This document shows positions 1,378 through 63,137 of a stretch of 64,000 bases of DNA, piece after piece. The position numbers and the translations under genes were made by a program. This DNA is from Parachlamydiales bacterium (GTDB lineage: Bacteria > Chlamydiota > Chlamydiia > Chlamydiales > Rhabdochlamydiaceae), in NCBI GenBank assembly GCA_003153295.1, contig PLXY01000011.1, forward strand, positions 383,117 to 447,116, in the 5' to 3' direction. Position 1 is the stretch's first letter, and each line of letters opens with the position of its first letter. The notes under the pieces are model-generated. The model had not been told where the DNA came from and made no database searches. It was given only the letters and a program-made list of their open reading frames with translations.

Positions 1378-2232
1378 ATGCTCTATGGTAAAGATTTTAA
1401 TATGAATCTACGTATAGCTGAAAATTACCAACTTTTAAAACAGGAAGTCACCACACACTGGAAAACAGGTGCGGTGATGACAGGTGTTGCTCTTGTTGTT
1501 TATCGAGTCTATGGCAAAGCAGCAGCAGGCGGTGTTCTTTTAGCGACTGTCTCCAATTACCAAATCCTTGGACAGCAAATCCGAGTTATCTCTTGGATGA
1601 ATTTAAGAAAAACTCTCATCGCTGTTGTTATCTTTGGTAATAGTTATTACAACGTGATCAATCCCCAAATGATGAGTTATTTGGCGGTTGCTTTGATGCT
1701 CATCGATAATTTTCAGCTCTCGGGCATCAATGCCGATCTCTCCACTCAAAATAAATCCCTCGAAGAAAATAACCTAAAACTCAAAGAAGCTTACGACGCA
1801 CTAAAGAAACTCGAAAAAGAGTTGCAAACGTTATTAAGCTCCGGTGCTGATCTTGAAAAGGCTCAAAAAGCAAAAACCGAGAAAGTTGAAACTCTGCAAG
1901 ACCTCATTCCAGAACATATCCAAAATATGCCGGCGCGATTGCTAAATGTGAGTATTCTTTTGAAGCAACTGATGAACACAGAAGAGATGCAAGAACGGAT
2001 GAAATTCGAAGCAGAGTTGAGAAGTAAGATTAACTCTATGGTGCAAGCTTTTGAGGGAGTTCTTGAGGAACTTCAACCTTTAACAGAAAAAGTAAGCAAA
2101 TTAAGCGACAATCTAGATCAAACCGTCTCAAAACTCCATGAGAATGTCATCCTCACCGATAGACAAATCCAAGCCTTAGGTCATGTGTTAAAAAACCTGC
2201 CCCCAAATTTATTTCCCAAGAGGGTTTTATGA
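1378..2232 (+). CDS. Inc-like membrane/coiled-coil protein
   Basis: A 284-residue protein I do not recognise. Two hydrophobic stretches (about residues 31-63 and 78-112) form a bilobed membrane region, followed by a long charged heptad-rich region (about 118-180 and 190-275) likely to form coiled coil. This layout is common to chlamydial inclusion-membrane proteins, but many other membrane proteins share it. A second ATG at 1402 could be the true start; neither has a strong Shine-Dalgarno sequence. The stop overlaps the next ATG (ATGA), so it is the first gene of a three-gene unit. Its function is unknown; the membrane plus coiled-coil reading is confident, the Inc label is inference. Confidence 0.7.
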   Translation: MLYGKDFNMNLRIAENYQLLKQEVTTHWKTGAVMTGVALVVYRVYGKAAAGGVLLATVSNYQILGQQIRVISWMNLRKTLIAVVIFGNSYYNVINPQMMSYLAVALMLIDNFQLSGINADLSTQNKSLEENNLKLKEAYDALKKLEKELQTLLSSGADLEKAQKAKTEKVETLQDLIPEHIQNMPARLLNVSILLKQLMNTEEMQERMKFEAELRSKINSMVQAFEGVLEELQPLTEKVSKLSDNLDQTVSKLHENVILTDRQIQALGHVLKNLPPNLFPKRVL

Positions 2233-3092
2233 GTACAACTGGAATTTCGACATGCAGTCGTTATTGTTGGGGACCAGTTCATATCCATCCTCAATCAGAA
2301 ACTCTATCTCAAGATCTATGGAGGATGAGCCAATCATTGATGGGACTACCGGGCTTTTTGGAAGCCGTGGCCTCTCATTCTGCCCCGCCACAGCCTTTAA
2401 CGGAACGGATTGTAGATAATATTTTTTTAGGTTTTATGGGCTTAACTGCATTGGCTGCTGCTCCTGTCATCGTTGCAGGCGCTGGACTTGCCTATGCCGG
2501 AGAAAAGCTTCTTGATACCATTGATGCCCTCCCGGGAATGAGAGTAAAAATTGAAGCGTTTGGGCAAGCATTAATCGAGCAAAAACAAATCATTGAAGCG
2601 TTTGGACCTCTATTAGATTTAGCAGACAAAGTCGCTGTTATTAATAAAAAAACAGCAGAAAAAACAGCAGAAATAAAAGAAAGCACATGCGAATTAGGTG
2701 AATTAGAGACAAACTATCCTGCAAATGCAGATTTGTTAGAAAGGGTAGAAAAGATAATCACCCGTTTGGAATTCGATTTACCCAAAACAATCTCTAAACA
2801 AAATATTTCAGGTCTAAAAGAAAAAAATCTCGCCCTACGAATAGAGATATTAAAGCAAGTTACTGCAGAAGAAGCCCAAATGAAAGCTTTAGCCTTTCGT
2901 CTCGATGACCTGATGAAAAGAGTAGGTGAAAAAGCTGAAGCCTTGCAACAGATGGAATCTCGCATGACGGAACTCACCGAGGTTAAAGAAGGACAAATTG
3001 AGGGATTAGAAAAAGATGCCAAATTTTTAATAGCTCAAACACAGCAACAAACCACGAAGATGAGGATTCAAGATGGTATCGTGGTGGTCTAG
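2229..3092 (+). CDS. Inc-like membrane/coiled-coil protein
   Basis: A 287-residue protein, second in the three-gene unit, coupled to the gene before by ATGA. Residues about 63-95 are an Ala/Gly/Val-rich hydrophobic segment long enough for a membrane hairpin. The N-terminal 60 residues are polar with His/Pro/Ser. From about 140 to the end the protein is Lys/Glu/Gln-rich with leucine heptads, a predicted coiled coil. Its size and plan resemble the preceding protein, so the two may form a heteromeric membrane complex. No enzyme motif is visible. Confidence 0.7.
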   Translation: MSTTGISTCSRYCWGPVHIHPQSETLSQDLWRMSQSLMGLPGFLEAVASHSAPPQPLTERIVDNIFLGFMGLTALAAAPVIVAGAGLAYAGEKLLDTIDALPGMRVKIEAFGQALIEQKQIIEAFGPLLDLADKVAVINKKTAEKTAEIKESTCELGELETNYPANADLLERVEKIITRLEFDLPKTISKQNISGLKEKNLALRIEILKQVTAEEAQMKALAFRLDDLMKRVGEKAEALQQMESRMTELTEVKEGQIEGLEKDAKFLIAQTQQQTTKMRIQDGIVVV

Positions 3093-3564
3093 TTGGTTTT
3101 CAAAGGATGTCACTGCTCAGCAGATGGTTCAAGACAGAGATCACGGCCTTGCTCATAATACAGATAAAGTAGATGACATTACACGAGTAAAGGAAAATCT
3201 CCGCCAATGTTTTGATGCTGTTAAAAATGCCAATCCCACTTTGTTTACAGCATTTAAGGATCCACCAGATAAAATAGTCAGCGAAAAAGAGATGGCCGAA
3301 CAACTTCGGATCGTGATGATGGCCACCATGACCAATCTTAATGGATTGGATCAAGATCTTCAAAAGGCGCGCGAAAAGAGAGAACTTCTTGAGCATCTGA
3401 TAGCAATTTGGGAAAGAATAGATCAAAATTTCGACAATGCTCTAAAAAATGGCGAGCAAGCGATAGCCTTGGATGAAAGAAACGTAGAAAATCTTACTGA
3501 ACTTCGAGTTTTGATGCAGAGAGCGGGTCAAACACCGACGTGCCGTAACGGTTCAATGGTTTAA
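3073..3564 (+). CDS. Hypothetical helical protein, third gene of the unit
   Basis: A 163-residue protein starting inside the preceding gene (20-base overlap), with GAGG upstream of its ATG acting as ribosome-binding site. The N-terminus is short and aromatic (WWSSWF), the rest strongly helical and charged with likely coiled coil over residues 35-150. No membrane span and no known domain. The last 71 bases overlap the 3' end of lplA on the other strand, so the C-terminal 23 residues are encoded on DNA that also encodes the end of a conserved enzyme. It probably works with the two membrane proteins upstream, on position only. Confidence 0.6.
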   Translation: MVSWWSSWFSKDVTAQQMVQDRDHGLAHNTDKVDDITRVKENLRQCFDAVKNANPTLFTAFKDPPDKIVSEKEMAEQLRIVMMATMTNLNGLDQDLQKAREKRELLEHLIAIWERIDQNFDNALKNGEQAIALDERNVENLTELRVLMQRAGQTPTCRNGSMV

Positions 3565-4207
3565 TAGAAAGTTCTTTCAAATTCATTTCTTTTGCCCCCA
3601 GCTGATTCTCCAGGCTCTTTTTCAGGCCGCTCAGCCAGTCGTCTCGATTCGCGAGATGATGAGATAAACGGCAAACAAACTCTTCATGCGGGCGCTCTCC
3701 CCGATAAGCGGGTGTTTTTGTCGGATGCTTTAGAAGCCCCATCCGTGCAGGCTCATAGTCCCATAAAAACGACGTATGAACGAGCCATCGGTCTTTTTTA
3801 ATATAAAGGGCGTTGCCACCGCATTTTTTTTCTCCGATGACAAAATCGTTTTCTCGTAACTGAAGTCCTTCTGTTGCAGGAGCAAGGACGGATTCTGCCC
3901 AGCGTAAAATCGGTTCTGGATAAGCTGGAAAATCGTGCTCTGCTTTATTACAAATAAAGGTCACAAACACGGTATTTTCATCGACAATCACCGTGCCCCC
4001 TCCGCTAAAACGTCTTAAGATAGGGATAGACTTAGGCAGCTGATCTAAATGGACTAAAGATTCGGCTTTACCTGAGATGCCCATGACAATGGCAGGAGAA
4101 GATCCCGTATTAATCAGGCAGAAATTCCGATCATCTTCTCGCAGCAGCTGTTCTTCTAAAAGGAGCTGATCATAAATGGAAGTGTTTTGGAGATGGAGAA
4201 TATTCAT
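3494..4207 (-). CDS. lplA: Lipoate-protein ligase A family protein
   Basis: A 237-residue member of the LplA/LipB/BPL family. Seen: the substrate-binding motif RRFSGGGTVIV near residues 64-74 and the lysine-bearing IGEKKCGGNALYI segment near 124-136, followed by VHTSFLWD. The enzyme activates lipoate with ATP and attaches it to E2 subunits of 2-oxoacid dehydrogenases in the cytosol; obligate intracellular bacteria usually scavenge lipoate. The start overlaps the stop of the REC-GGDEF gene by 4 bases. In C. trachomatis, from memory, lplA directly follows gidA; here three genes lie between them. The 3' end overlaps the convergent gene ending at 3564. Confidence 0.88.
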   Translation of the reverse strand: MNILHLQNTSIYDQLLLEEQLLREDDRNFCLINTGSSPAIVMGISGKAESLVHLDQLPKSIPILRRFSGGGTVIVDENTVFVTFICNKAEHDFPAYPEPILRWAESVLAPATEGLQLRENDFVIGEKKCGGNALYIKKDRWLVHTSFLWDYEPARMGLLKHPTKTPAYRGERPHEEFVCRLSHHLANRDDWLSGLKKSLENQLGAKEMNLKELSIKPLNRYGTSVFDPLSASKLEVQ

Positions 4208-5067
4208 TTAGAAACGATCTTGTTTCCTGTTTTTTTAGCTTCTGCAGTCGCCCTGGTTACACCCGCAAGAAGCTTTTCAAAATCGTTAGAAGACGATGGA
4301 TCGATACTGATGAGACCGATCGACACTGATAAAGGAATGCTAAATGAAGTGCGCAGCACTTCTATTCGGATTGTTTCTGCGATAATCTCCGCAGCGCGGT
4401 TGGAAGTGCGGGGCAGCATCAGAATAAATTTACCCGGGCCTTGGGGGATTAAGAGATCATTTTTCCGTAGGTTTTCTTGGAGGATGGTTTGGAGATGTGC
4501 AGTTGCATTTTTTGAAGTTGGAAATTTTTTAAACTCGTCTAGCTCTATCATGAGCAAACTGATGATCGTGGAGGTCTTGCGCGCTTTGGTAATTTCTTTA
4601 ATCGCTTGATCGCTTAAGAATGCATGTTTAGAAAGCGGTGCTGAAGATCTCATCCTAGGGGTACTGCGCTGAGCAATCTGCGTGATTTTCTTGGGCCGTT
4701 CTTGATTCTTAAAGGCGACAGTGATCCGTTGCTCTATTTCGTCTTTGTCCAATGGTTCATTGAGAAAATCTGTAATTCCTGAACGAAGAGCCTCTTGAGC
4801 AAAACTTTTTTTGATATTTGTCGTTATGAGTAAAATAGGTGTTTCTAAAAAAACAGCCGCCCGTATTTTTTCACCCGTCTCAAAGCTATGTCCTTCTTGT
4901 ACTTTTGAATCTAGGATGACCAAATCCACTCGGGTATTTTTTAGCAGTTCTAGGGCCGTTTTAACATCCGATCTTTCGATCAGATGAAAAGTGTTCTTCA
5001 ACGCTCTCTTCAAAAGCGATAGTTTGGTTACATCTTCACAGACCACTAAAGCAACGGGCAAGTTCAT
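4204..5067 (-). CDS. Response-regulator-like protein with degenerate GGDEF domain
   Basis: A 287-residue protein. Residues 1-120 are a receiver domain: acidic pair E11-D12, candidate phosphoacceptor D53 in VILD, T82/T83, but the usual Lys of the KP motif is replaced (E104-P105). Residues about 165-287 follow the GGDEF cyclase fold: an IELDEFKKF helix (normally D-x-D-x-F-K) and a late SIGLISI strand. The signature loop reads GPGKF at 210-214 instead of GGDEF, so the metal and GTP residues are lost. I read it as a non-catalytic signalling or scaffold protein. It is ATGA-coupled both to the upstream coiled-coil gene and to lplA. Confidence 0.8.
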   Translation of the reverse strand: MNLPVALVVCEDVTKLSLLKRALKNTFHLIERSDVKTALELLKNTRVDLVILDSKVQEGHSFETGEKIRAAVFLETPILLITTNIKKSFAQEALRSGITDFLNEPLDKDEIEQRITVAFKNQERPKKITQIAQRSTPRMRSSAPLSKHAFLSDQAIKEITKARKTSTIISLLMIELDEFKKFPTSKNATAHLQTILQENLRKNDLLIPQGPGKFILMLPRTSNRAAEIIAETIRIEVLRTSFSIPLSVSIGLISIDPSSSNDFEKLLAGVTRATAEAKKTGNKIVSK

Positions 5068-5495
5068 GATAGACTCTTTACAGCAAGAGAGTTAAAATTT
5101 TTATAACCTATATACGCAGTTATGCTCACCATGATGACAGCGAAAATAACAACACAAGTCTCGGTAACTATATCAGCTTTTACCGTTAATTTTTTTAAAG
5201 ATTCGTTCAAGTTATGTGCACCCTCTTCTACTTCAGAAAGACTCTTTTCAAATGATTTTTCTGCTTCATGAGCCATTAAACGCTTTTCCTCAACATCACC
5301 CATTTCCTGCCCGTTTAATTCTCCCTCTTGAGCAATTCTACGAGTGAATGCAATGTTTCCTAATTGTTGTTCACGGAGTTGATCTATTTCTTCTATCAAA
5401 ACCTTAAGATCCTCCGCATTGACGGTATAAGTACCGTTTTGAGAGGGATTACCTAAGAGCACTCGTATTCTTTCTAGTGCTGGTATCACTGACAT
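5064..5495 (-). CDS. Coiled-coil protein with C-terminal membrane anchor (paralogue 2)
   Basis: A 143-residue protein. An N-terminal helical segment with D-L-K-V-L-I-E-E-I-D-Q-L-R-E-Q-Q-L spacing is followed by a long Glu/Lys-rich coiled coil (about 45-105) and one hydrophobic span near residues 112-132, leaving a short tail, a tail-anchor-like arrangement. It shares plan and spaced residues with the gene just upstream at 5526-5939, so the two are tandem paralogues. It sits in the mnmG operon and its stop overlaps the REC-GGDEF start (ATGA). Function unknown. Confidence 0.7.
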   Translation of the reverse strand: MSVIPALERIRVLLGNPSQNGTYTVNAEDLKVLIEEIDQLREQQLGNIAFTRRIAQEGELNGQEMGDVEEKRLMAHEAEKSFEKSLSEVEEGAHNLNESLKKLTVKADIVTETCVVIFAVIMVSITAYIGYKNFNSLAVKSLS

Positions 5496-5525
5496 AAAAT
5501 CTCACCTTCTAAAAGATTTTTCAAA

Positions 5526-5939
5526 TCAAGAGACTCTCTTCGCCAAAGGAAGGGCGATAAAATTGTATTTTTCATTGAGGTGGTACAGGCTTGCTATTCC
5601 TACTAGGGCTAACATGACTAAAAGGTATAGATCGGCAACTCTGTCATGCGTTGCTTTCAACTTTTTGGCTAGTTCATCTATACGATCAACATCTTTTTCT
5701 AATCGAGAAATCGTTACGTCTTCATCTTCATGTCTTAATATTTGCCGCGTTTGCATGTCCTGTACATCTTTTGCCATATAGACCTGTTCCGTTACAGTTT
5801 TCAACTGAGCTTCACGTTGATGATCTATCAGCTTTACGAGGTTGAGCAATTCTTCCAGATCTTTACGAGTGACCACCACGGTCATACTATGAGGGTTATT
5901 TAAAAGTTGGCTTTGTAATCTTTGCAAGGCAGTCGTCAT
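5526..5939 (-). CDS. Coiled-coil protein with C-terminal membrane anchor (paralogue 1)
   Basis: A 137-residue protein following mnmG by 12 bases. Residues 1-40 contain the shared pattern L..L..QLL.NP....TVVVTRKDLEEL...IDHQREAQL; a coiled coil spans about 45-100 and a hydrophobic span about 103-123 lies near the C-terminus. The match to the 143-residue neighbour in both N-terminal motif and anchor position argues for duplication. No enzyme or known Inc family is recognised. It may be a membrane-tethered partner of the REC-GGDEF protein encoded downstream, by position only. Confidence 0.7.
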   Translation of the reverse strand: MTTALQRLQSQLLNNPHSMTVVVTRKDLEELLNLVKLIDHQREAQLKTVTEQVYMAKDVQDMQTRQILRHEDEDVTISRLEKDVDRIDELAKKLKATHDRVADLYLLVMLALVGIASLYHLNEKYNFIALPLAKRVS

Positions 5940-5951
5940 ATACCCTCAAAA

Positions 5952-7817
5952 TTAACAGGAAGAGCAACCAGGTTCGTGATCATCAGTATAAAGATTTTTA
6001 TTGCGGAGCGCAACCATCAGCACTTGGACATCGGCAGGTGTGATGCCGCTGAGTCTAGAGGCTTGTCCGACATTGCGCGGCTTGATTTTATTCAGCTTTT
6101 CTCGAGCTTCGCGGCTGAGGCCCGCAATCTGTAAAAAGTCGAGCTTAGGGGGGATTTCCATTTTTTCTACACCCTCGAGTTTGGCAACTTCTTGATATTG
6201 CCGCTCAATATAACCGGCATATTTGATGTGGAGCTCGATTTGAAAATTGATCTCTTTGCCATGATCTTGGATGATAGCGGGAAATTCTGTGAGCAATTGA
6301 TTATAAGTGGTTGCAGGGCGAGAAAGCAGCTGAGCAAAAGAGAGGCTTTTACCGTCTAAGGAAATATATTTTTTTGTGAGGAATTGAATCTGCTCAGTTA
6401 TCGTTTTTTCTTTCACTTCCAGTTTTGCAAATCGGGCTGCGTCGACAAGTCCCAGCTCGTATCCATAGCGGCGGAGACGCAAATCTGCGTTGTCTTGACG
6501 CAGCAGCAATCGATGTTCAGCGCGGCTTGTAAACATCCGGTAAGGCTCATCGAGCTCTTTGGTGATGAGCTCATCGATCATCACGCCGATATAAGCATCG
6601 GACCGTTTTAGGAAAAAGGGAGGCTTGCCTTGGACTTTGAGTGCCGCATTAATCCCTGCGATCAACCCTTGGCCTGCGGCTTCTTCATAACCTGTCGTGC
6701 CGTTGATCTGACCGGAGATGAAAAGCCCTTCGATTTTTTTTGTTTCCAATGTCGGAAAAAGCTGTCCGCTTGTGATGTAGTCGTATTCGATGGCATAGGC
6801 AGGACGCATGATCTCTGCATTTTGAAGGCCAGGAATTGTGCAGATCATTTTCATTTGTACGTCAAACGGCAACGAGGTTGAGATCCCGTTGATATAGAGT
6901 TCATCAGTCTGAAGACCTTCCGGTTCGATGAAAATCTGATGTCTTTCTTTGTCGGCAAAGCGGACAAATTTATCTTCGATGGAAGGACAATAGCGCGGGC
7001 CTCTGCTTTGGATTTGTCCAGAGTACATGGGAGAGAGATGGAGATGTTCTAAAACAACTTTTTTAGTTTCATCGGATGTGTAAGTGATATAGCAAGGGAC
7101 TTGAGGAAGGCCTGGACCTTCAGGTTCATCGTAGGAAAAGCGGATCCCTGATTCACCCCATTGCGGTTCCATCTGAGTAATATCGACGCTGCGGCGGTTG
7201 ACACGAGGAGGTGTCCCAGTCTTTAGCCGTCCCAATATAAAGCCGAGCTGTTCTAAGCTAGAAGAGAGTCCGAGCGAAGGTTTATCTCCTGCCCGTCCGC
7301 CTGCGAAAGTCGTCGAGCCGATATGAATCATCCCTCTCATGAAAGTCCCCGACGATAGGATGACGGTCTTGGCCGTGTAGGCGATCCCTTCTTGAGTCTC
7401 AACGCCGATGACTTTTTGATCTCGAACAATGAGATTTTCAGTCGTTCCTTGTTTGATGAAAAGATTAGAGGTTTCTTCCAGCTTTTTTTTCATGACCGTC
7501 TGATAGGCGAGCTTGTCGCTTTGGCAGCGTGGAGACCAGACAGCCGGTCCTTTAGAGCTATTGAGCATGCGGTATTGGATTGCAGTCGCATCGGCAATTT
7601 TGCCCATGATACCGCCCATCGCATCGATTTCACGAACGATGTGCCCTTTCGCAGTCCCGCCGACAGCAGGATTGCAGCTCATCTTGCCAATCGTATCCAA
7701 TGACATGGTCAGAAGCAGGGTTCTAGCTCCCATGCGGGCAGCGGCATGCGCCGCTTCACAGCCTGCATGGCCGGCACCGACAACAATGACATCAAATTCT
7801 TCTGGAAACGTCCACAT
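5952..7817 (-). CDS. mnmG: tRNA uridine-5-carboxymethylaminomethyl synthesis enzyme MnmG (GidA)
   Basis: A 621-residue protein of normal MnmG length. The N-terminal FAD Rossmann motif VVGAGHAGCEAA is at about 12-23, then MSLDTIGKMSCNPAVGG containing the conserved CNPAxGG loop. The second MnmG signature G-T-T-G-Y-E-E-A-A-G-Q-G lies near 370-380. With MnmE it installs the cmnm5 group on wobble U34 of several tRNAs. It is the first gene of a minus-strand operon running to lplA. It is divergent from the gene at 7898, with an 80-base promoter region between. Confidence 0.97.
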   Translation of the reverse strand: MWTFPEEFDVIVVGAGHAGCEAAHAAARMGARTLLLTMSLDTIGKMSCNPAVGGTAKGHIVREIDAMGGIMGKIADATAIQYRMLNSSKGPAVWSPRCQSDKLAYQTVMKKKLEETSNLFIKQGTTENLIVRDQKVIGVETQEGIAYTAKTVILSSGTFMRGMIHIGSTTFAGGRAGDKPSLGLSSSLEQLGFILGRLKTGTPPRVNRRSVDITQMEPQWGESGIRFSYDEPEGPGLPQVPCYITYTSDETKKVVLEHLHLSPMYSGQIQSRGPRYCPSIEDKFVRFADKERHQIFIEPEGLQTDELYINGISTSLPFDVQMKMICTIPGLQNAEIMRPAYAIEYDYITSGQLFPTLETKKIEGLFISGQINGTTGYEEAAGQGLIAGINAALKVQGKPPFFLKRSDAYIGVMIDELITKELDEPYRMFTSRAEHRLLLRQDNADLRLRRYGYELGLVDAARFAKLEVKEKTITEQIQFLTKKYISLDGKSLSFAQLLSRPATTYNQLLTEFPAIIQDHGKEINFQIELHIKYAGYIERQYQEVAKLEGVEKMEIPPKLDFLQIAGLSREAREKLNKIKPRNVGQASRLSGITPADVQVLMVALRNKNLYTDDHEPGCSSC

Positions 7818-7897: not shown

Positions 7898-8428
7898 ATG
7901 CCCATCTTAACAATTACGTCAAAAGATTTACAATCAGCTGGTTTAAATATTTTGTACAGTGCTGGGCATAAAATCATCGGCGGAGCTGTGGCCTATGGAG
8001 TGATTCAAGTAGCTAGACGAGTTTTTAACAGATCTTTTTATTCTGACAGCACCTTGCAAAAAATAGAAAGAGCGGCAATTTTGACCAGCTGCATCATTAG
8101 TTATTATGTGGCTTCACAAACACCTCTAAAGACATTTTCCTTTCGGAAGGCATTGGAGTTGTTCATTTTAGAAATCATCCTCAATGCTTGCTTTAAGTCA
8201 TGGCTTTCAAGAGAAGTAGAGATATTTATTCCGAGTGCCAAAGGTACTTTAGGAGGCAATCTCGGAGGAGCATGGTTAGGTTATTTTTCAGGCCATCTGG
8301 GCGGACGCACAGGGCAGATCTTGATGAGCATTATGGGAGCACAATCCTACGTAAGTATTGCTAGAGAAAACTTCTCAAGCAGTAAACGTAGACCCTTTTA
8401 TCAAAGATTTTTAGCTGATGAAGAGTAG
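7898..8428 (+). CDS. Hypothetical glycine-zipper membrane protein
   Basis: A 176-residue protein not recognised. It has hydrophobic segments near residues 23-40, 62-78 and 88-100, and a glycine-rich stretch (about 118-140, GTLGGNLGG then SGHLGG) typical of glycine-zipper membrane helices. No signal peptide cleavage site is obvious. AAAGGG upstream of the ATG is a plausible ribosome-binding site. It is single-gene, ending in a bidirectional terminator shared with the gene on the other strand. It could be an inclusion or inner-membrane protein; function unknown. Confidence 0.65.
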   Translation: MPILTITSKDLQSAGLNILYSAGHKIIGGAVAYGVIQVARRVFNRSFYSDSTLQKIERAAILTSCIISYYVASQTPLKTFSFRKALELFILEIILNACFKSWLSREVEIFIPSAKGTLGGNLGGAWLGYFSGHLGGRTGQILMSIMGAQSYVSIARENFSSSKRRPFYQRFLADEE

Positions 8429-8576: not shown

Positions 8577-10148
8577 TTAAGTAGCAATTTCTCGGCTTTC
8601 TTCGGCAGTTCCCGCCGCAGTTTCTTTAATATTAATGGTTTCGTTATGGGCAACAAGAGACTGGAATTGTTTACCCAAATAATGAACAGCGACCATCCAT
8701 GCAGCGATGACAACGAGGAGGATAACACCTACAAAAGGAATGGTTGCAGATACAGTTCCAAAGAACATTAAAAGAGCTTGATAGATGAGGGCGCTTCCTG
8801 ATTTACCAAGGCGAGATCCCACGCCGTCAATAGCCGCTTTTCCTTTCAGTTTGGACTCTCGGCTCAAAGGAATAAAAGCGAGCTCTTTTGTGGCATCGAA
8901 AATCGTATATTTAGAAGCTCTTGAAATACATTGTTGGACTGAACCGAATAGAACGCCCAGAACTAGGGGGGTGCTTCCCATAAAGGCACCGAGGGCTATT
9001 CCTACTGAGGTATCTTTCATGAGGAGGAAGGAGAAAAATCCCACACCGGTGATCAAGAGAAGCGCAGGAGGGACCATCGCATTGATCGTCCAAGAAAATT
9101 TTCTGATCATCACACTCGTTGCAATCGCAATCATCGTTGCAGCGATGCCGACCCACATCGTGACCCTGCCCATGTAGCCATTGAAGTCGTTAGGCTGTGG
9201 ATGGATATGAAGGAGCTGGTCTTTCCAGGTGACTTCGGTCAGGTTAATACAGATGTTATAAGTGAGCACAATCGTCGCAATGCAAAGTAAATATTTGGAA
9301 CTGGCCAGGTATTTAAAGTTCTTACGGAGGCTCATTTTTTCATTTGATTTTTCCGTCTCATAGGTGAGCTGCTGACGATAAGCGGGATTTTTTAAAATAT
9401 TTTTATGGAACCAGCGGAAGATGCCCATCACAATGACTCCGCCTACAACGACGATACAGCTGATAATTAAAAGAGAATATTGCCAAGGATCATTGCCATT
9501 GGTCGCCATCCACTTTCCGGCCATATTGGAAATAATCGTCGCGGCCCCTCCTGCGCAGATCGCAGATAGATTGCCTCCGATAAGGATCAGAACGTAGAAC
9601 CGTTTGGCCGTTTTAACATTCAAAATTTCATTGGCAAATCCCCAGAAGAGGACTGTCATGATCGTCGTGCCCCAAAGTTCGGCCATCACATAGAATGTCG
9701 TATAAGTCCAATTCCGTATAAGCGCGACGAATCCTTTAAGACCGAGCGGGAAGTAGCCTTCCAACCGATCGGCAAATGCATGGGGGTGGAGCGCATCGCG
9801 GAGAGGAAATAGGATGAAAGAAAAGACCATGAAAAACCCCAAGAAGAGAGTCATCATGATATAAAACACTTTCTCGGTTGTGTACCGGTTGGCCAGTCGA
9901 GTAAAGAGAATCGTCATGAGAAGAGCCATGGGTAAGACCACCCAGACCTTCATAAAAGGGATGATTTCTGCTCCTGAAGAAGGGGCTGTAATGACGAGGG
10001 AATCTTTTGCGGCTCTTAAGATATTATAATTAAAACAAATGAAGAAAAAGATTAGTATTAGTGGTAAAAATAATTTCAATTCGCTTTTATGGACAGGGCA
10101 GAACCAGGAACGGAAACGGCCGAATTCCTGGGAACTGTTAGATGACAT
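8577..10148 (-). CDS. ADP/ATP translocase (NTT family), copy 1
   Basis: A 523-residue, about 12-span membrane protein. The N-terminus has the family pattern PVHKSELKLFLP...F.ICFNYN.LR..KDSLVITAPSSGAE; later come WGFANEI...KRFY and RNWTYTTFYVMAELW, and the conserved DATKELAFIPLSRESK.KGKAAIDGVGSRLGKSG block near 430-460. NTTs exchange bacterial ADP for host ATP, or import other nucleotides, across the inner membrane of chlamydiae and rickettsiae. A paralogue lies at 30939-32492. The exact substrate cannot be read from sequence. It is preceded by a good sigma-70-type promoter at 10193-10220. Confidence 0.93.
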   Translation of the reverse strand: MSSNSSQEFGRFRSWFCPVHKSELKLFLPLILIFFFICFNYNILRAAKDSLVITAPSSGAEIIPFMKVWVVLPMALLMTILFTRLANRYTTEKVFYIMMTLFLGFFMVFSFILFPLRDALHPHAFADRLEGYFPLGLKGFVALIRNWTYTTFYVMAELWGTTIMTVLFWGFANEILNVKTAKRFYVLILIGGNLSAICAGGAATIISNMAGKWMATNGNDPWQYSLLIISCIVVVGGVIVMGIFRWFHKNILKNPAYRQQLTYETEKSNEKMSLRKNFKYLASSKYLLCIATIVLTYNICINLTEVTWKDQLLHIHPQPNDFNGYMGRVTMWVGIAATMIAIATSVMIRKFSWTINAMVPPALLLITGVGFFSFLLMKDTSVGIALGAFMGSTPLVLGVLFGSVQQCISRASKYTIFDATKELAFIPLSRESKLKGKAAIDGVGSRLGKSGSALIYQALLMFFGTVSATIPFVGVILLVVIAAWMVAVHYLGKQFQSLVAHNETINIKETAAGTAEESREIAT

Positions 10149-12705: not shown

Positions 12706-13740
12706 ATGATCACACATACAATGATAATGCGGTGCGAGGAAAGTCCTTCGGAGAGAAGGGCGCCTTTAACACCAGAAGACGCGGGTAGGCTTTTAGGGGC
12801 AGGTTTTCGCATTTTAGTCGAAACTTCTGCTCATCGAATTTTTTCTGATGAACAATATCGAAACAGTGGATGTGAAATTGTTTCAAAAGAGAGTTGGCGT
12901 TCAGCCCCCTCTAAAACGACTATTTTAGGCATCAAAGCACTTCCTGAAGATGAGATGTGCTTCAGCCACATTCATATCTTTTTTGCACATGCTTATCGAA
13001 AACAGCTGCATAGCGTTTCTCTATTGCAAAAATTTGTAGCGGGGCAAGGAACTCTTCTCGATCTTGAATATCTTTTAGACGAACGAAAAATGAGATTAGT
13101 CTCTTTTAGCCGCTATGCTGGCATTGCTGGGGCTATTGCAGGATTGAATGCTCTATTGCCTCAATCCTACCCCCTCATGGACCAGATCTCATCGACAGAA
13201 TGGAAGAGACAGCTTTCTGCCCATTTACCTGAGTTAAAATCATTCCGTTATCTCATTACCGGAGCTGAGGGACGGTGCGGTGGAGGTGTAGGTTCAATCT
13301 TTGAAGATTTGGGCATTCGTGTTGACAGGTGGACGTTAGAAGATACTCTCTCGGGTCGTCCTTTCAGCGATATTCTCAATTATGATGTGCTTTTTCATTG
13401 TGCAGCGGCTTTAACTGCTCAGCCGCTAATGGTGAAGCTTTCAGAGGAATGTCCAGAACTGATCGTCGATATTACATGCGATATTGGCAATCCCTTTAAT
13501 CTCTTAGATCTGGGCCATCATGCCACCTCTTTTGCAGCTCCTGTGCAATGGATCCAAAGAACAAATAAGCCTTTAAAAGTCGTTGCCATCGATCATTTGC
13601 CCAATCTTCTTTCTGAAGAGAGTAGTCGATGGTTTTCTTCGCAGCTTCTGCCTTTGTTGATGAAGCCTGAACACCCAGCATGGGAAGAGAGCTTTAATCA
13701 TTTTCAAAGAGCAATTGCCCATTTAGGAGGTGCAATGTGA
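12706..13740 (+). CDS. Saccharopine dehydrogenase, lysine-forming type (LYS1-like)
   Basis: A 344-residue protein. The N-terminus carries the AlaDH/PNT-type motif ESPSERRAPLTPEDAGRLL; a central Rossmann motif GAEGRCGGGV near 187-196 matches the GxxGRCGxG loop of LYS1-type enzymes, which interconvert lysine + 2-oxoglutarate and saccharopine with NAD. Slightly shorter than fungal LYS1 (about 370). An ATG at 12721 is an alternative start that aligns better with family N-termini. It is GTGA-coupled to the next gene, the partner enzyme. In context it should act in lysine breakdown or synthesis through saccharopine. The direction is inference. Confidence 0.82.
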   Translation: MITHTMIMRCEESPSERRAPLTPEDAGRLLGAGFRILVETSAHRIFSDEQYRNSGCEIVSKESWRSAPSKTTILGIKALPEDEMCFSHIHIFFAHAYRKQLHSVSLLQKFVAGQGTLLDLEYLLDERKMRLVSFSRYAGIAGAIAGLNALLPQSYPLMDQISSTEWKRQLSAHLPELKSFRYLITGAEGRCGGGVGSIFEDLGIRVDRWTLEDTLSGRPFSDILNYDVLFHCAAALTAQPLMVKLSEECPELIVDITCDIGNPFNLLDLGHHATSFAAPVQWIQRTNKPLKVVAIDHLPNLLSEESSRWFSSQLLPLLMKPEHPAWEESFNHFQRAIAHLGGAM

Positions 13741-14858
13741 GAAATATTCATTGGATTGGATCTGGATTATCTTCAACGTTTGGCATTGATGAGCTGATTG
13801 CTCATCCTAGGGGAAATTTGCATCTTTGGATGCGAGATCCTGCTAAAGCTAAATGGAACAGCTCTGCTGTTTCGATACATCAGTATGATCTTGATTGTTT
13901 AAGAGAGACGTTGTGTGCGGGAGATATTGTTGTCTCCATGCTTCCTTTTACGATGCATTTGTCTTTGGCTCAAATGGCACTAGAGCGCGGAGCTCATTTT
14001 ATCTGCAGCAGTTATCTGTCTCCTGCCTTGTTGGAGCTGGATGAAACAGCTCGAGCAAAAGGGGTTATTGTCGCAGGTGAGATGGGATTAGATCCGGGGA
14101 TTGATCACATGTTAGCGCATGAACTGGTACGAAGGTATCAAGAGGATCGGAAGGATGAGAACCACTCCATTTCGTTTCTCTCTTTATGTGGAGGAATTCC
14201 CGAGGCTCCTGGTCCTTTTTGCTATCAATTCAGCTGGTCGCCGGTCGGCATTCTGCGAGCGCTTCGTCAAGCTTCCACATGGTTGGAAGGAGGACAGCCC
14301 TGTACAGTGGGAGCTCCTTATCAGGCTGTTAAAACAGTGAGAATCAGAGGAGAGGAATTCGAATATTATCCTAACCGCGATTCATTGCCATTTATTGATT
14401 ATTACCAGCTTCCCCGAGACCGTTTAAAAAAGTTTCTCAGGGGGTCGATCCGTTCTCAAGGATGGAAAGAAGCCTGGAAAGATATTTTTTATCAGCTTCC
14501 GGAGTTAAATGAAGAAGGTCTTCAAGCTTTGAGTCAAGAGCTCTATGAAAAATACGCTTATAAAGACAATGAGAGGGATCGCGTCGTGATGTTTATCGCG
14601 CTTGATGTAACGAACCATTTAGGAGAGATTGTTCGAACTTACTCGGCCTATTTGGATGTTATAGGCAATGAAACTCATCATGCGATGACTACTCTGGTCT
14701 GCTTGCCTCTTTTGACCGTGATCGATGGAATTATCGAAGGGAGATATGCGCCGGGTATTTTAAGGCCGGTTCCATCGAAGCAAGAATTAGACAGATGGCT
14801 CCAGTTGCTAGAGCTTCATCAAATTGAGGTTCAATTTGTTACTACGGAGCGACTATGA
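13737..14858 (+). CDS. Saccharopine dehydrogenase, glutamate-forming type (LYS9-like)
   Basis: A 373-residue protein with GTG start overlapping the previous stop. It has an N-terminal nucleotide-binding segment (IGSGLSS), the VVSMLPFTMH motif near 62-71, and the diagnostic GEMGLDPGIDHMLA near 110-123 of the saccharopine reductase family (family form VGLDPGIDH). It splits saccharopine into glutamate and 2-aminoadipate semialdehyde, or the reverse. Shorter than LYS9 (about 446), closer to bacterial homologues. Coupled by ATGA to an MFS transporter, giving a compact three-gene unit. Confidence 0.82.
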   Translation: MRNIHWIGSGLSSTFGIDELIAHPRGNLHLWMRDPAKAKWNSSAVSIHQYDLDCLRETLCAGDIVVSMLPFTMHLSLAQMALERGAHFICSSYLSPALLELDETARAKGVIVAGEMGLDPGIDHMLAHELVRRYQEDRKDENHSISFLSLCGGIPEAPGPFCYQFSWSPVGILRALRQASTWLEGGQPCTVGAPYQAVKTVRIRGEEFEYYPNRDSLPFIDYYQLPRDRLKKFLRGSIRSQGWKEAWKDIFYQLPELNEEGLQALSQELYEKYAYKDNERDRVVMFIALDVTNHLGEIVRTYSAYLDVIGNETHHAMTTLVCLPLLTVIDGIIEGRYAPGILRPVPSKQELDRWLQLLELHQIEVQFVTTERL

Positions 14859-30938: not shown

Positions 30939-32492
30939 TTAAGAAGTTGTTAAGACAGGTTCTTCTTCTTTTGCAGTTGCAGTTTCCGAAGCTTCGGCCT
31001 GTGATTGTTCTGCAGCAAGCTGGTTGAACTGCTTGCCCAGGACTTTGACTGCAAAGACCCAGCCGATGACTGCAATGAGCAAAAGGAAGGCAACGATATG
31101 GATGCTGCCGACAATCGATCCAAAAATAATCAGCAGAAATTGATACATCAAGGATGCGCCCGATTTTCCCAGACGTGAACCCAGGCCGTCGATCGCAGGT
31201 TTTCCTTTCATCTTGGATTCTTGGCTTAAAGGCACAAAGGCAAGTTCTTTTGTCTGATCGACCAGACTGTACTTTGTTCCTCTCAGCAGGCAGTTTTGTA
31301 AAGAGCCCAAGAAAACGGCCAGTACAATAGGTGAAGTTCCAATAGCTGCGCAGATTTCAATCAGAGTAGCCTTCGGCAGAAGAAGCGCGGCAAAGAAAAG
31401 AGCGCCGGTTACTAAAGTCAGGATCGGAGCGATCAAAGCACTTTTCGTCCATCCCAAGGCCCGGATGACATTCCCCGAAATAAAGAGAGAAATCAAAGCT
31501 GCCAAGAGGGCGATCCAGAAATTGATGCCTGCCATATAAGAGTTAAAGTCGGCAGTTGTAGGATAGAGCTGTTTGACTTGGTCTTTCCAGACCACTTCAG
31601 CTAGATTGATCACGATATTGAAAGTGATCACAAGAACGGCGATGCACATGAGGTATTTGGACTTAGTGAGAAATCTAAAGCTTTTGCGCATGCCCATTTT
31701 AATGGGGGACTCCCGGTGGGCTTTCAACGTCTCTTCGGTATAGCCGAGCCCCTGGCGATTCAGCCACCAATAGAGTCCCATGCTGATCAGGCTGGTCCCA
31801 ACAATCACTAAATTCATCAAAGTGAATGACTGATCCCAGCTATTTTTCCCAAAAGGCAGGGAAGCATTGAAAATATGAGTGGTCAGATTTTTAACTAAAA
31901 AGGCGGCGGCGACCCCTGAAAGATTGGTCCCGACTCCGATCAGTCCATAGAAACGTTTGGCATCTTTAACAGAGGTGACATCATTGGCAAAGCCCCAGAA
32001 GAGCACTGTCATGATCATGGTGCTCCACATCTCCGCCATCACATAGAAAGTCGTAAAGGTCCAATTCCGGATGATGGCCACAAGACCACTGCATCCTTTA
32101 GGCAAGACGCCTTGGAGATAGTCGGCAAATTCATGAGGATGTAAAGCATCTCTGTTAGGATAGAGGAAAAAGGTAAAAGCAACAAAATAAGCGATATAGA
32201 ACCAGATCATCGCATAAAAGATCGTCCTTCGGTTGAAGAAATTCGAAAGACGCGTAAACAAGAACATCATCAAGATGGCGGTGGGCATGATGGCCCAGAC
32301 TTTAATATAGGGAAGAGCTTCAGCTCCCGAGGAAGGAGCCGTAATAATCACGCCGTCTTTTATAATTTTTAGAAGATAATAATTGAAACAGATGAGGAAA
32401 GAAATGAGGAGCATCGGAATGAATTTTCGGTGTTCTTCCCGATGTACAGGCCATAAAAAGGCACGTAAAGTGCCAAATGCCTTGTTACTCAT
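30939..32492 (-). CDS. ADP/ATP translocase (NTT family), copy 2
   Basis: A 517-residue paralogue of the protein at 8577-10148. It shares PVHREEHRKF, FLICFNYYLLK, KDGVIITAPSSGAEALPYIKVW and DQTKELAFVPLSQESKMKGKPAIDG. About 12 membrane spans. The two differ in several pore-facing positions, e.g. RAAKDS versus KIIKDG, so they may have split substrates (ATP/ADP exchange versus nucleotide uptake). The C-terminus has an extra Glu/Ala/Thr tail. Single gene with its own 180-base upstream region. Confidence 0.93.
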   Translation of the reverse strand: MSNKAFGTLRAFLWPVHREEHRKFIPMLLISFLICFNYYLLKIIKDGVIITAPSSGAEALPYIKVWAIMPTAILMMFLFTRLSNFFNRRTIFYAMIWFYIAYFVAFTFFLYPNRDALHPHEFADYLQGVLPKGCSGLVAIIRNWTFTTFYVMAEMWSTMIMTVLFWGFANDVTSVKDAKRFYGLIGVGTNLSGVAAAFLVKNLTTHIFNASLPFGKNSWDQSFTLMNLVIVGTSLISMGLYWWLNRQGLGYTEETLKAHRESPIKMGMRKSFRFLTKSKYLMCIAVLVITFNIVINLAEVVWKDQVKQLYPTTADFNSYMAGINFWIALLAALISLFISGNVIRALGWTKSALIAPILTLVTGALFFAALLLPKATLIEICAAIGTSPIVLAVFLGSLQNCLLRGTKYSLVDQTKELAFVPLSQESKMKGKPAIDGLGSRLGKSGASLMYQFLLIIFGSIVGSIHIVAFLLLIAVIGWVFAVKVLGKQFNQLAAEQSQAEASETATAKEEEPVLTTS

Positions 32493-61647: not shown

Positions 61648-62268
61648 ATGCACCAGGTCTTGCGTTTTGCCAAAACAGCTTATATTGAAACTCAAAATCT
61701 CATCCCTTTACTGAGGGACTATACGAATCCCTACAGTTGTATTTCCCGCATGGTAAAAAAGGGGGAGCTCATCCGTTTAAAAAATGGCTTTTTTGTCATC
61801 GCTGAAAAACTTGAGAATACTCCTGTTCCTTATGAGCAAATTGGGAATCTTCTCTATGGTCCCTCTTATATCAGTTTTGAATGGGCGCTATCTCACTATG
61901 GAATGATTCCGGAAGGAGTTTATGTTGTAACAAGCGCAGTTGCAACTAAGTCAAAAAGTTATAAAACCCCCTTGGGAACTTTTGACTATACCTATTTGAG
62001 CCACTCACGTTATGCCATAGGGATTGATCAGAAGGAAAATCTTGCAGGGAGATATCTGATTGCGACTCCAGAAAAAGCATTGGCCGATCTAGTTCACTTA
62101 AAGAGTAAAGGTTTAGAAGCTAAAGATTTGTTGGTCGATCTCATTGAAGGTAGGAGAATCGATGAAGGGGATTTAAAAAATTTGAATAAAAAACATTTGC
62201 TGGAAATCGGTGAGAATTATCGTTCTCGAGCCGTCAGACAGCTTATTAACACTCTGGGATTGTTATGA
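61648..62268 (+). CDS. abiEi: AbiEi-family antitoxin
   Basis: A 206-residue protein. The N-terminal winged helix (about 1-55) has RMVKKGELIRLKNGFFVI, and the AbiEi domain has PSYISFEWALSHYGMIPEG near 71-89 and IATPEKALADLVHLKSKG near 137-154. It neutralises the nucleotidyltransferase toxin and represses the operon in related type IV systems. ATGA-coupled to the toxin gene. Confidence 0.9.
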   Translation: MHQVLRFAKTAYIETQNLIPLLRDYTNPYSCISRMVKKGELIRLKNGFFVIAEKLENTPVPYEQIGNLLYGPSYISFEWALSHYGMIPEGVYVVTSAVATKSKSYKTPLGTFDYTYLSHSRYAIGIDQKENLAGRYLIATPEKALADLVHLKSKGLEAKDLLVDLIEGRRIDEGDLKNLNKKHLLEIGENYRSRAVRQLINTLGLL

Positions 62269-63137
62269 ATGACTCAATTGTTAAAAAAATGGTCAACCGA
62301 TATCAAAACTCCAAAATCAGTGAACAGACAAAGATCCGGGAAATTTTACAACAAACAGCTCTTTTGGGATTAAAAAGGCAGGGCTTTTTTGAAAAAGCAG
62401 CTTTTTATGGTGGAACGGCTTTGCGAATTTTATATGGCCTCGATCGATTTAGTGAGGATTTGGATTTTACTCTATTACAGCCTGATCCCGCGTTTGATTT
62501 TACTCCATTTTTAGATGGAGTGCGTAAAGAGCTTGCAGCTTTCGGTTTTGAAATGGAAGTAGCTCAGAAAATCAAAACGATGGAAACAAGCGTGATCTCA
62601 GCCTTCATGAAAATGAATACAATCAAACTTTATTTAGCAATCGGTGAAGAAAAAAAATCCAAATCCATCAATCACAATGAAACCATTCAGATTAAGCTAG
62701 AAGTGGATATCGATCCCCCGTCTTATTTTCGAGTGGAAGAACACATCGTTCTCAATCCTACATCCTTTTATGTCTCGACTCTTCATCGTAGTGACTTATT
62801 TGCAGGAAAAATGCATGCCATTTTATATAGAGCTTGGAAAGGTAGAGTCAAAGGTCGCGATTGGTATGATTTAATTTGGTATATTAAAAACAATGTTCCT
62901 CTAGGTCTTCGTTATTTAGAGGAATGCATGCGGCAAACAAAAAATCTGGAATCTAACAAATCATTAACTCGAGATCGTTTGATGGAGATGCTTCGGTCAA
63001 AAATTCAGGGGATTGATTGGGAAAGCGCCAAAGCCGATATGCGCAGTTTTATTGCAGATCCAGAAAGGCTAGATATCTGGTCTTCTCAATTTTTTTCAGA
63101 CCTGATTCAGCATCTTCTTATAGAGGATTTAACCTGA
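62265..63137 (+). CDS. abiEii: AbiEii-family nucleotidyltransferase toxin
   Basis: A 290-residue protein of the AbiEii/DUF1814 family. The nucleotidyltransferase motif is AAFYGGTALRILYGLDRFSEDLDFTL near 45-70 with GG and D-x-D; motif III lies at KLEVDIDPPSYFRV near 145-158, and the conserved ...HRSDLFAGKMHAIL..R.KGRDWYDL.W segment near 180-210. Related toxins transfer nucleotides to tRNA ends. Intact catalytic residues suggest an active pair. Confidence 0.9.
   Translation: MNDSIVKKMVNRYQNSKISEQTKIREILQQTALLGLKRQGFFEKAAFYGGTALRILYGLDRFSEDLDFTLLQPDPAFDFTPFLDGVRKELAAFGFEMEVAQKIKTMETSVISAFMKMNTIKLYLAIGEEKKSKSINHNETIQIKLEVDIDPPSYFRVEEHIVLNPTSFYVSTLHRSDLFAGKMHAILYRAWKGRVKGRDWYDLIWYIKNNVPLGLRYLEECMRQTKNLESNKSLTRDRLMEMLRSKIQGIDWESAKADMRSFIADPERLDIWSSQFFSDLIQHLLIEDLT

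Follow-up and report, generated by a model that had tools for sequence, protein, structure and literature searches.

A degenerate receiver-GGDEF protein resident at the mnmG-lplA junction of Chlamydiota, and a likely recent insertion of two anchored paralogues ahead of it

DgcR is a diguanylate cyclase of the receiver-GGDEF (REC-GGDEF) architecture (6zxb and 6zxm), and its NCBIfam model is named for Leptospira. According to an excerpt of PMC10333796, PopA of Caulobacter (REC-REC-GGDEF) is a dead cyclase that keeps the RxxD motif and acts as a receptor of cyclic di-GMP (c-di-GMP). Degenerate GGDEF domains are also carried by phosphodiesterases of the GdpP type, which act on cyclic di-AMP (c-di-AMP), as stated in sections of PMC10333796 and PMC10745434. 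Pseudo-receivers, including ChxR of Chlamydia trachomatis, are discussed in a section of PMC12632262. Here, we describe RGG, a REC-GGDEF-like protein encoded between mnmG and lplA in a stretch of 64,000 nucleotides (the window) from a Parachlamydiales bacterium of the Rhabdochlamydiaceae (assembly GCA_003153295.1, 2.26 Mb in 12 contigs; contig PLXY01000011.1, positions 383,117 to 447,116 of the forward strand). Among the titles and starts of abstracts listed from the open literature, a coverage outside which most subscription papers fall, none describes RGG. The terms GGDEF and diguanylate and related terms were absent from the main text of three chlamydial genome papers (PMC9723776, PMC9816063 and PMC8242063).

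RGG was inherited at the mnmG-lplA junction and is not an insertion. On balance, we lean towards a reading in which RGG is a conserved junction gene whose product lacks catalytic residues and serves as a ligand-gated switch without enzymatic activity. In this reading, the two genes ahead of it, ccA and ccB, which are paralogues known from this genome only, were inserted recently. The five genes mnmG, ccA, ccB, RGG and lplA follow each other in a tight series on one strand (positions are those of the window):

5952-7817, minus strand: mnmG (gidA), first in the run, tRNA wobble-uridine modification enzyme (TIGR00136, 846 bits, E 1.9e-254)
5526-5939, minus strand: ccA, 137 amino acids (aa), hydrophobic stretch at residues 100-122, paralogue of ccB, orphan
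5064-5495, minus strand: ccB, 143 aa, hydrophobic stretch at residues 103-133 with a heptad pattern ahead of it, orphan
4204-5067, minus strand: RGG, REC-GGDEF-like, 287 aa, degenerate (Response_reg 4.4e-13, GGDEF 2.7e-11)
4708-5058, minus strand: pseudo-receiver half of RGG, about residues 4-120, with D53 and T82 kept, Glu104 in place of the receiver lysine, and K86-K87
4204-4623, minus strand: GGDEF-like half of RGG, about residues 149-287, with GPGKF (residues 210-214) in place of GG[DE]EF
4456-4467, minus strand: inhibitory-site motif RKND of RGG, R201-D204
3494-4207, minus strand: lplA-like lipoate-protein ligase gene, last in the run (LplA-B_cat PF21948, E 4.7e-25)

The coordinates and domain matches bear out the gene order given in a preliminary description of this stretch, with its four-base overlaps or very short gaps. 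The distance is 12 bases from mnmG to ccA and 30 bases from ccA to ccB. The stop of ccB and the start of RGG overlap in a four-base ATGA, as do the stop of RGG and the start of lplA. Shine-Dalgarno-like sequences (GAGGG and AAGGTGAG) lie upstream of the ATG in ccA and ccB. Against TIGR00545, the lplA product scored 70 bits, below the model cut-off of 280.

RGG was searched for in 232 genomes of the phylum, many of them incomplete assemblies, and 68 genomes other than that of the window matched at E 1e-9 or better. Loci were taken from 64 of the 68 (not from G180, G138, G137 and G092) and from G006 (1.8e-9), giving 65 loci supplied by ten families (codes f1, f2, f3, f7, f8, f13, f14, f17, f27 and f28). 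In 64 of the 65, RGG stands beside mnmG, lplA or a second resident gene of the junction, which we call SSP. The mnmG gene lies at most 700 bases upstream in 54 loci, and lplA or SSP at most 700 bases downstream in 61; both conditions hold in 51 loci and neither in 1. With the window included (66 loci), the GGDEF motif is canonical in 3 loci, the catalytic motif is lost in 55 and the receiver half stands alone in 8. In a tree made by a quick method, which includes five long-branch rows and excludes a second copy and nine rows that are partial or hold the receiver alone, the 54 full-length degenerate rows all fall on one side of a branch with a support of 100 (Shimodaira-Hasegawa-like approximate likelihood ratio test, SH-aLRT). 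The three syntenic canonical proteins adjoin this clade (89); further out lie five more GGDEF proteins of chlamydiae.

The direct gidA-lplA adjacency that the preliminary description had given for chlamydial genomes does exist: it was seen in families f5 (2 of 2 loci fetched), f22 (3 of 3) and f10 (5 of 6, the exception being G049, which has lplA and no mnmG nearby). Among the 80 loci placed on a tree of mnmG, the junction holds RGG with SSP in 30 loci, RGG alone in 16, the receiver half only in 4, the receiver half with SSP in 3, SSP alone in 11 and neither RGG nor SSP in 16. These 80 loci were chosen by matches and some contigs end nearby, so that the proportions are not population frequencies. 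On this tree, the presence of RGG requires at least 16 changes and that of SSP at least 17, and gain and loss are indistinguishable by such counts. Repeated loss of RGG is the simpler reading because the gene keeps to one locus and forms one clade.

SSP encodes a protein of 108-152 aa with a signal-peptide-like start and sits between RGG (or mnmG) and lplA in many genomes. It was found in 71 of the 232 genomes, two of the matches being weak, and in none of the window's genus. No Pfam family matched it above cut-off. A structure model gives a small beta-barrel and a helix of uncertain kinship. Since each occurs without the other, RGG and SSP are not an obligate pair. One example is:

L039:5918-6286: SSP, small exported family without a Pfam name, in similar places in other loci

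DgcR has GGEEF and the receiver lysine, whereas RGG of the window has GPGKF and a glutamate. The GGDEF fold is still recognised by its domain match, and the GG[DE][DE] of an active cyclase occurs in none of the 55 degenerate rows. In contrast to this loss, the inhibitory site keeps its RxxD pair: R201 is present in 48 of the 55 rows and D204 in 52, and both columns rank with the best conserved. A lost catalytic motif with a kept RxxD is the sequence pattern of a dead-GGDEF receptor of the PopA kind. RGG shares with PopA the receiver and a GGDEF domain of this pattern; it differs in having one receiver instead of two and in the scarcity of other GGDEF domains in its carriers (see below), a comparison made on described features. 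In both GdpP and RGG, the degenerate GGDEF domain belongs to a cell that possesses a c-di-AMP enzyme. RGG differs from GdpP in that no DHH/DHHA1 domain was found by domain search and no hydrophobic segment by hydropathy.

The receiver half bears on whether RGG could be a response regulator of the ordinary, phosphorylated kind, with the GGDEF half merely as its output domain. In favour of this, the PF00072 fold is present (4.4e-13), the acceptor aspartate D53 is found in 51 of the 55 rows and a threonine or serine at position 82 likewise in 51. The conserved lysine and the acidic pair of a phospho-receiver, however, are not retained. The lysine column holds glutamate in 40 of the 55 rows and lysine in 1, and the acidic pair is mostly lost, with threonine or serine at position 10 in 45 rows and C10-E11 in the window. 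We therefore give a phosphorylated regulator little credence. A derived lysine pair, K86-K87, is conserved, also in the lineages reduced to the receiver half. ChxR is comparable in that the receiver of RGG, too, is predicted to act without phosphorylation. ChxR, however, belongs to the DNA-binding OmpR/PhoB subfamily, whereas RGG keeps the aspartate, mostly lacks the lysine and carries a GGDEF-like half.

The signalling pathway around RGG was counted in the same, partly incomplete assemblies; HD_5 and the diadenylate cyclase domain were searched in 30 genomes, which include 6 of the 55 carriers of a degenerate RGG. GGDEF domains were found in 72 of the 232 genomes. Most carriers (53 of the 55, the window's G000 among them) showed no second GGDEF domain, so that RGG is the sole one or there is none above threshold; G197 and G207 are the carriers with a second. 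The EAL domain was found in 1 of the 232 genomes and PilZ in 2, in both cases in none of the 55 carriers. HD_5 occurred in 1 of the 30 genomes searched and the diadenylate cyclase domain in 28 of the 30, G000 included. A census of 2005, in a section of PMC1183210, reports that transducers other than histidine kinases (HKs) and serine/threonine/tyrosine kinases (STYKs) were lost in chlamydia, and an excerpt of PMC10333796 states that c-di-GMP signalling is not maintained in Chlamydia. Because other GGDEF domains were undetected in 53 carriers, and EAL and PilZ in all 55, RGG seems to have persisted after c-di-GMP signalling was lost. In G058, the protein encoded between mnmG and lplA (locus L092) has a canonical GGEEF motif. 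This genome also has PilZ and HD_5, and it probably possesses a c-di-GMP pathway, which is rare among chlamydiae.

These counts also bear on whether RGG can be taken for a PopA-like receptor, with c-di-GMP sensed at the inhibitory site. The kept RxxD and the precedent of PopA (PMC10333796, excerpt) speak for this. The absence of a second detected GGDEF domain in nearly all carriers, and of detected EAL and PilZ in all of them, leaves no evident source of c-di-GMP inside the cell. Hence, c-di-GMP is unlikely to be the ligand of RGG, and a PopA-like receptor is improbable. A variant would be that the inhibitory site was re-tuned to c-di-AMP, making RGG a c-di-AMP receptor on a REC-GGDEF frame, docked to the membrane here by the anchor pair. 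The molecule is a candidate because the diadenylate cyclase domain is nearly universal in the genomes searched and because c-di-AMP enzymes of the GdpP kind contain a dead GGDEF domain. We know of no earlier c-di-AMP receptor on such a frame, and we consider this variant rather improbable.

RGG could also be a functionless, decaying relic. Its catalytic motif is lost, the GGDEF half is missing in 8 of the 66 loci and the gene itself has often been lost. Against decay, the ratio of nonsynonymous to synonymous substitution rates (dN/dS) was 0.055-0.096 in four RGG pairs of relatives, which indicates purifying selection. Moreover, the frames are open in ten families and the derived K86-K87 is conserved. 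A relic is thus hardly credible.

For the reading that we favour, a non-enzymatic switch, the following course is proposed. An ancestral receiver-bearing diguanylate cyclase would have lost catalysis along with the loss of c-di-GMP signalling in host-dependent bacteria. The GGDEF-like half would have been retained as a nucleotide-binding sensor by way of the inhibitory site. Its bound or unbound state would then be relayed by the pseudo-receiver to a partner through the K86-K87 face, without phosphorylation. Binding of the partner would be the core job of RGG and ligand sensing a removable add-on. Contact through the receiver is taken as the core because receiver-only lineages exist and keep K86-K87. 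In the window species, co-translation with ccB may place RGG near the membrane, a step that the core function would not need and that gene order alone suggests.

Several points weigh against this course. The ligand and the partner of the switch are predicted only. The ligand known for the inhibitory site, c-di-GMP, should be absent from a genome without a detected cyclase. Position 201 is not arginine in 7 of the 55 rows. The column of D53 holds Ala, Glu and Asp in the three canonical syntenic proteins, and the history of the receiver is therefore less simple than 'phosphorylated, then not'. Ordinary GGDEF domains, too, often have an aspartate at the position of D204, whose conservation may therefore be partly structural. 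Selection was measured in relatives and not directly in the window because the pair of the window and G148 is saturated at synonymous sites. Finally, the many changes that the presence of RGG requires on the mnmG tree, and its frequent loss, make it dispensable in many lineages.

The two anchor genes have a different history. As the preliminary description had proposed, ccA and ccB are paralogous: BLASTP aligned them at 23% identity with E 4e-8 (single comparison). Their alignment score of 98 (shuffle means 31-35) was matched in 0 of 2000 shuffles under each of three schemes. By part, 2 of 5000 shuffles were as good for the N-terminal 50 residues and 0 of 5000 for the remainder. The claimed C-terminal hydrophobic anchors were likewise found, each protein having, by hydropathy only, a single hydrophobic stretch close to the C-terminus. 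The coiled coil assigned to both is half supported: a heptad pattern directly before the anchor is clear in ccB, where 1 of 300 shuffles was as good, and not clear in ccA (61 of 300). Inc proteins of chlamydiae have a bilobed hydrophobic domain. Such a domain was not seen by hydropathy in ccA or ccB. The G+C fraction is 0.40 in ccA and 0.37 in ccB, compared with 0.48 in mnmG.

At E 0.001, ccA and ccB matched only themselves and each other, in 1 of the 232 genomes. Among 5.8 billion proteins, no relative was found apart from the proteins themselves, namely P0001, an 88-residue piece of ccB (99% identical), and P0002, which is identical to ccA. Both genes were absent genome-wide from four congeners, two of which (G146 and G149) are incomplete assemblies. 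They were also absent from the mnmG-RGG junction of the three congeners whose contigs reach it (G147, G148 and G149); the contig of G146 ends inside RGG. The mnmG-RGG gap is 12 bases in G147 and G149, and the two genes overlap directly in G148, the nearest relative, whose RGG is about 75% identical. At the G148 overlap (L035:5845-5903), the end of mnmG and the beginning of RGG are read in different frames, and the extent of the overlap varies with the RGG start chosen. Because the relatives lack them at the junction and genome-wide, the anchors are most simply explained by insertion in the window lineage. The pair is thus likely a lineage-specific, recent insertion ahead of RGG.

The preliminary description had seen three genes inserted into a conserved operon and forming one membrane-tethered signalling complex, an undescribed system. 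The insertion likely stands for ccA and ccB and falls for RGG, which was inherited at the junction across ten families. The tandem order, the ATGA overlap of ccB and RGG and the true paralogy of the anchors would suit a complex. However, of the 232 genomes only that of the window has the anchors, no relative was found in the protein database, and 54 other genomes with a degenerate RGG include none with anchors. The three genes thus do not recur as one unit, an outcome that the preliminary description had named as refuting its proposal. The overlaps at RGG-SSP and SSP-lplA in relatives resemble those in the window. Since short overlaps are usual at the locus, those in the window do not argue specifically for a complex, which we regard as very unlikely. 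It is quite possible, if short of probable, that ccA and ccB are functionally unrelated to RGG and are fast-evolving membrane proteins, perhaps exported to a host-facing membrane, that borrow the operon promoter. Their orphan status, their A+T-rich composition and a neighbourhood with other genus-level genes for hydrophobic, helix-rich products (1378-3564) point that way. Their orientation and translational coupling, in contrast, fit the operon closely, and the single hydrophobic stretch in each differs from the bilobed domain of Inc proteins.

Other genes of the window were noted as follows. Three overlapping plus-strand genes between sdhB and lplA (1378-2232, 2229-3092 and 3073-3564) encode hydrophobic, helix-rich products. 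The set is also present in the congeners G148 and G146 and has no Pfam match above cut-off; at the same place, G149 has a diverged relative of the first gene and two further frames. On the strand opposite to mnmG, an open frame of 176 aa (7898-8428, plus strand) lies between mnmG and an ATP/ADP translocase gene. It is absent in G148 because the corresponding gap is shorter than 200 bases. Two ATP/ADP translocase genes are on the minus strand, at 8577-10148 (by resemblance of the translated frame) and 30939-32492 (PF03219, 2.1e-168). The overlapping plus-strand pair 12706-13740 and 13737-14858 has alanine-dehydrogenase/PNT N-terminal and saccharopine dehydrogenase domains, and resembles a split lysine-ketoglutarate reductase/saccharopine dehydrogenase. 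An AbiEii-type nucleotidyltransferase gene (62265-63137, plus strand; PF08843, 4e-32) is preceded by a 206-aa frame without a Pfam match (61648-62268, plus strand). The two are likely a type IV toxin-antitoxin pair, in which the 206-aa frame could be the partner.

The locus is of interest for RGG, the shell that is left of a lost signalling enzyme, and not for a new membrane system of three genes. At one locus and across ten families, the stages can be compared directly: the canonical motif, its loss, a receiver on its own and no gene at all. This offers a clean case for what stays useful in a signalling enzyme after its messenger is lost. If the c-di-AMP variant were true, a chlamydial switch would read the sole cyclic dinucleotide that these bacteria still make. 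For obligate intracellular bacteria, which are poor in signalling proteins, RGG is a candidate switch, often with the SSP gene adjacent.

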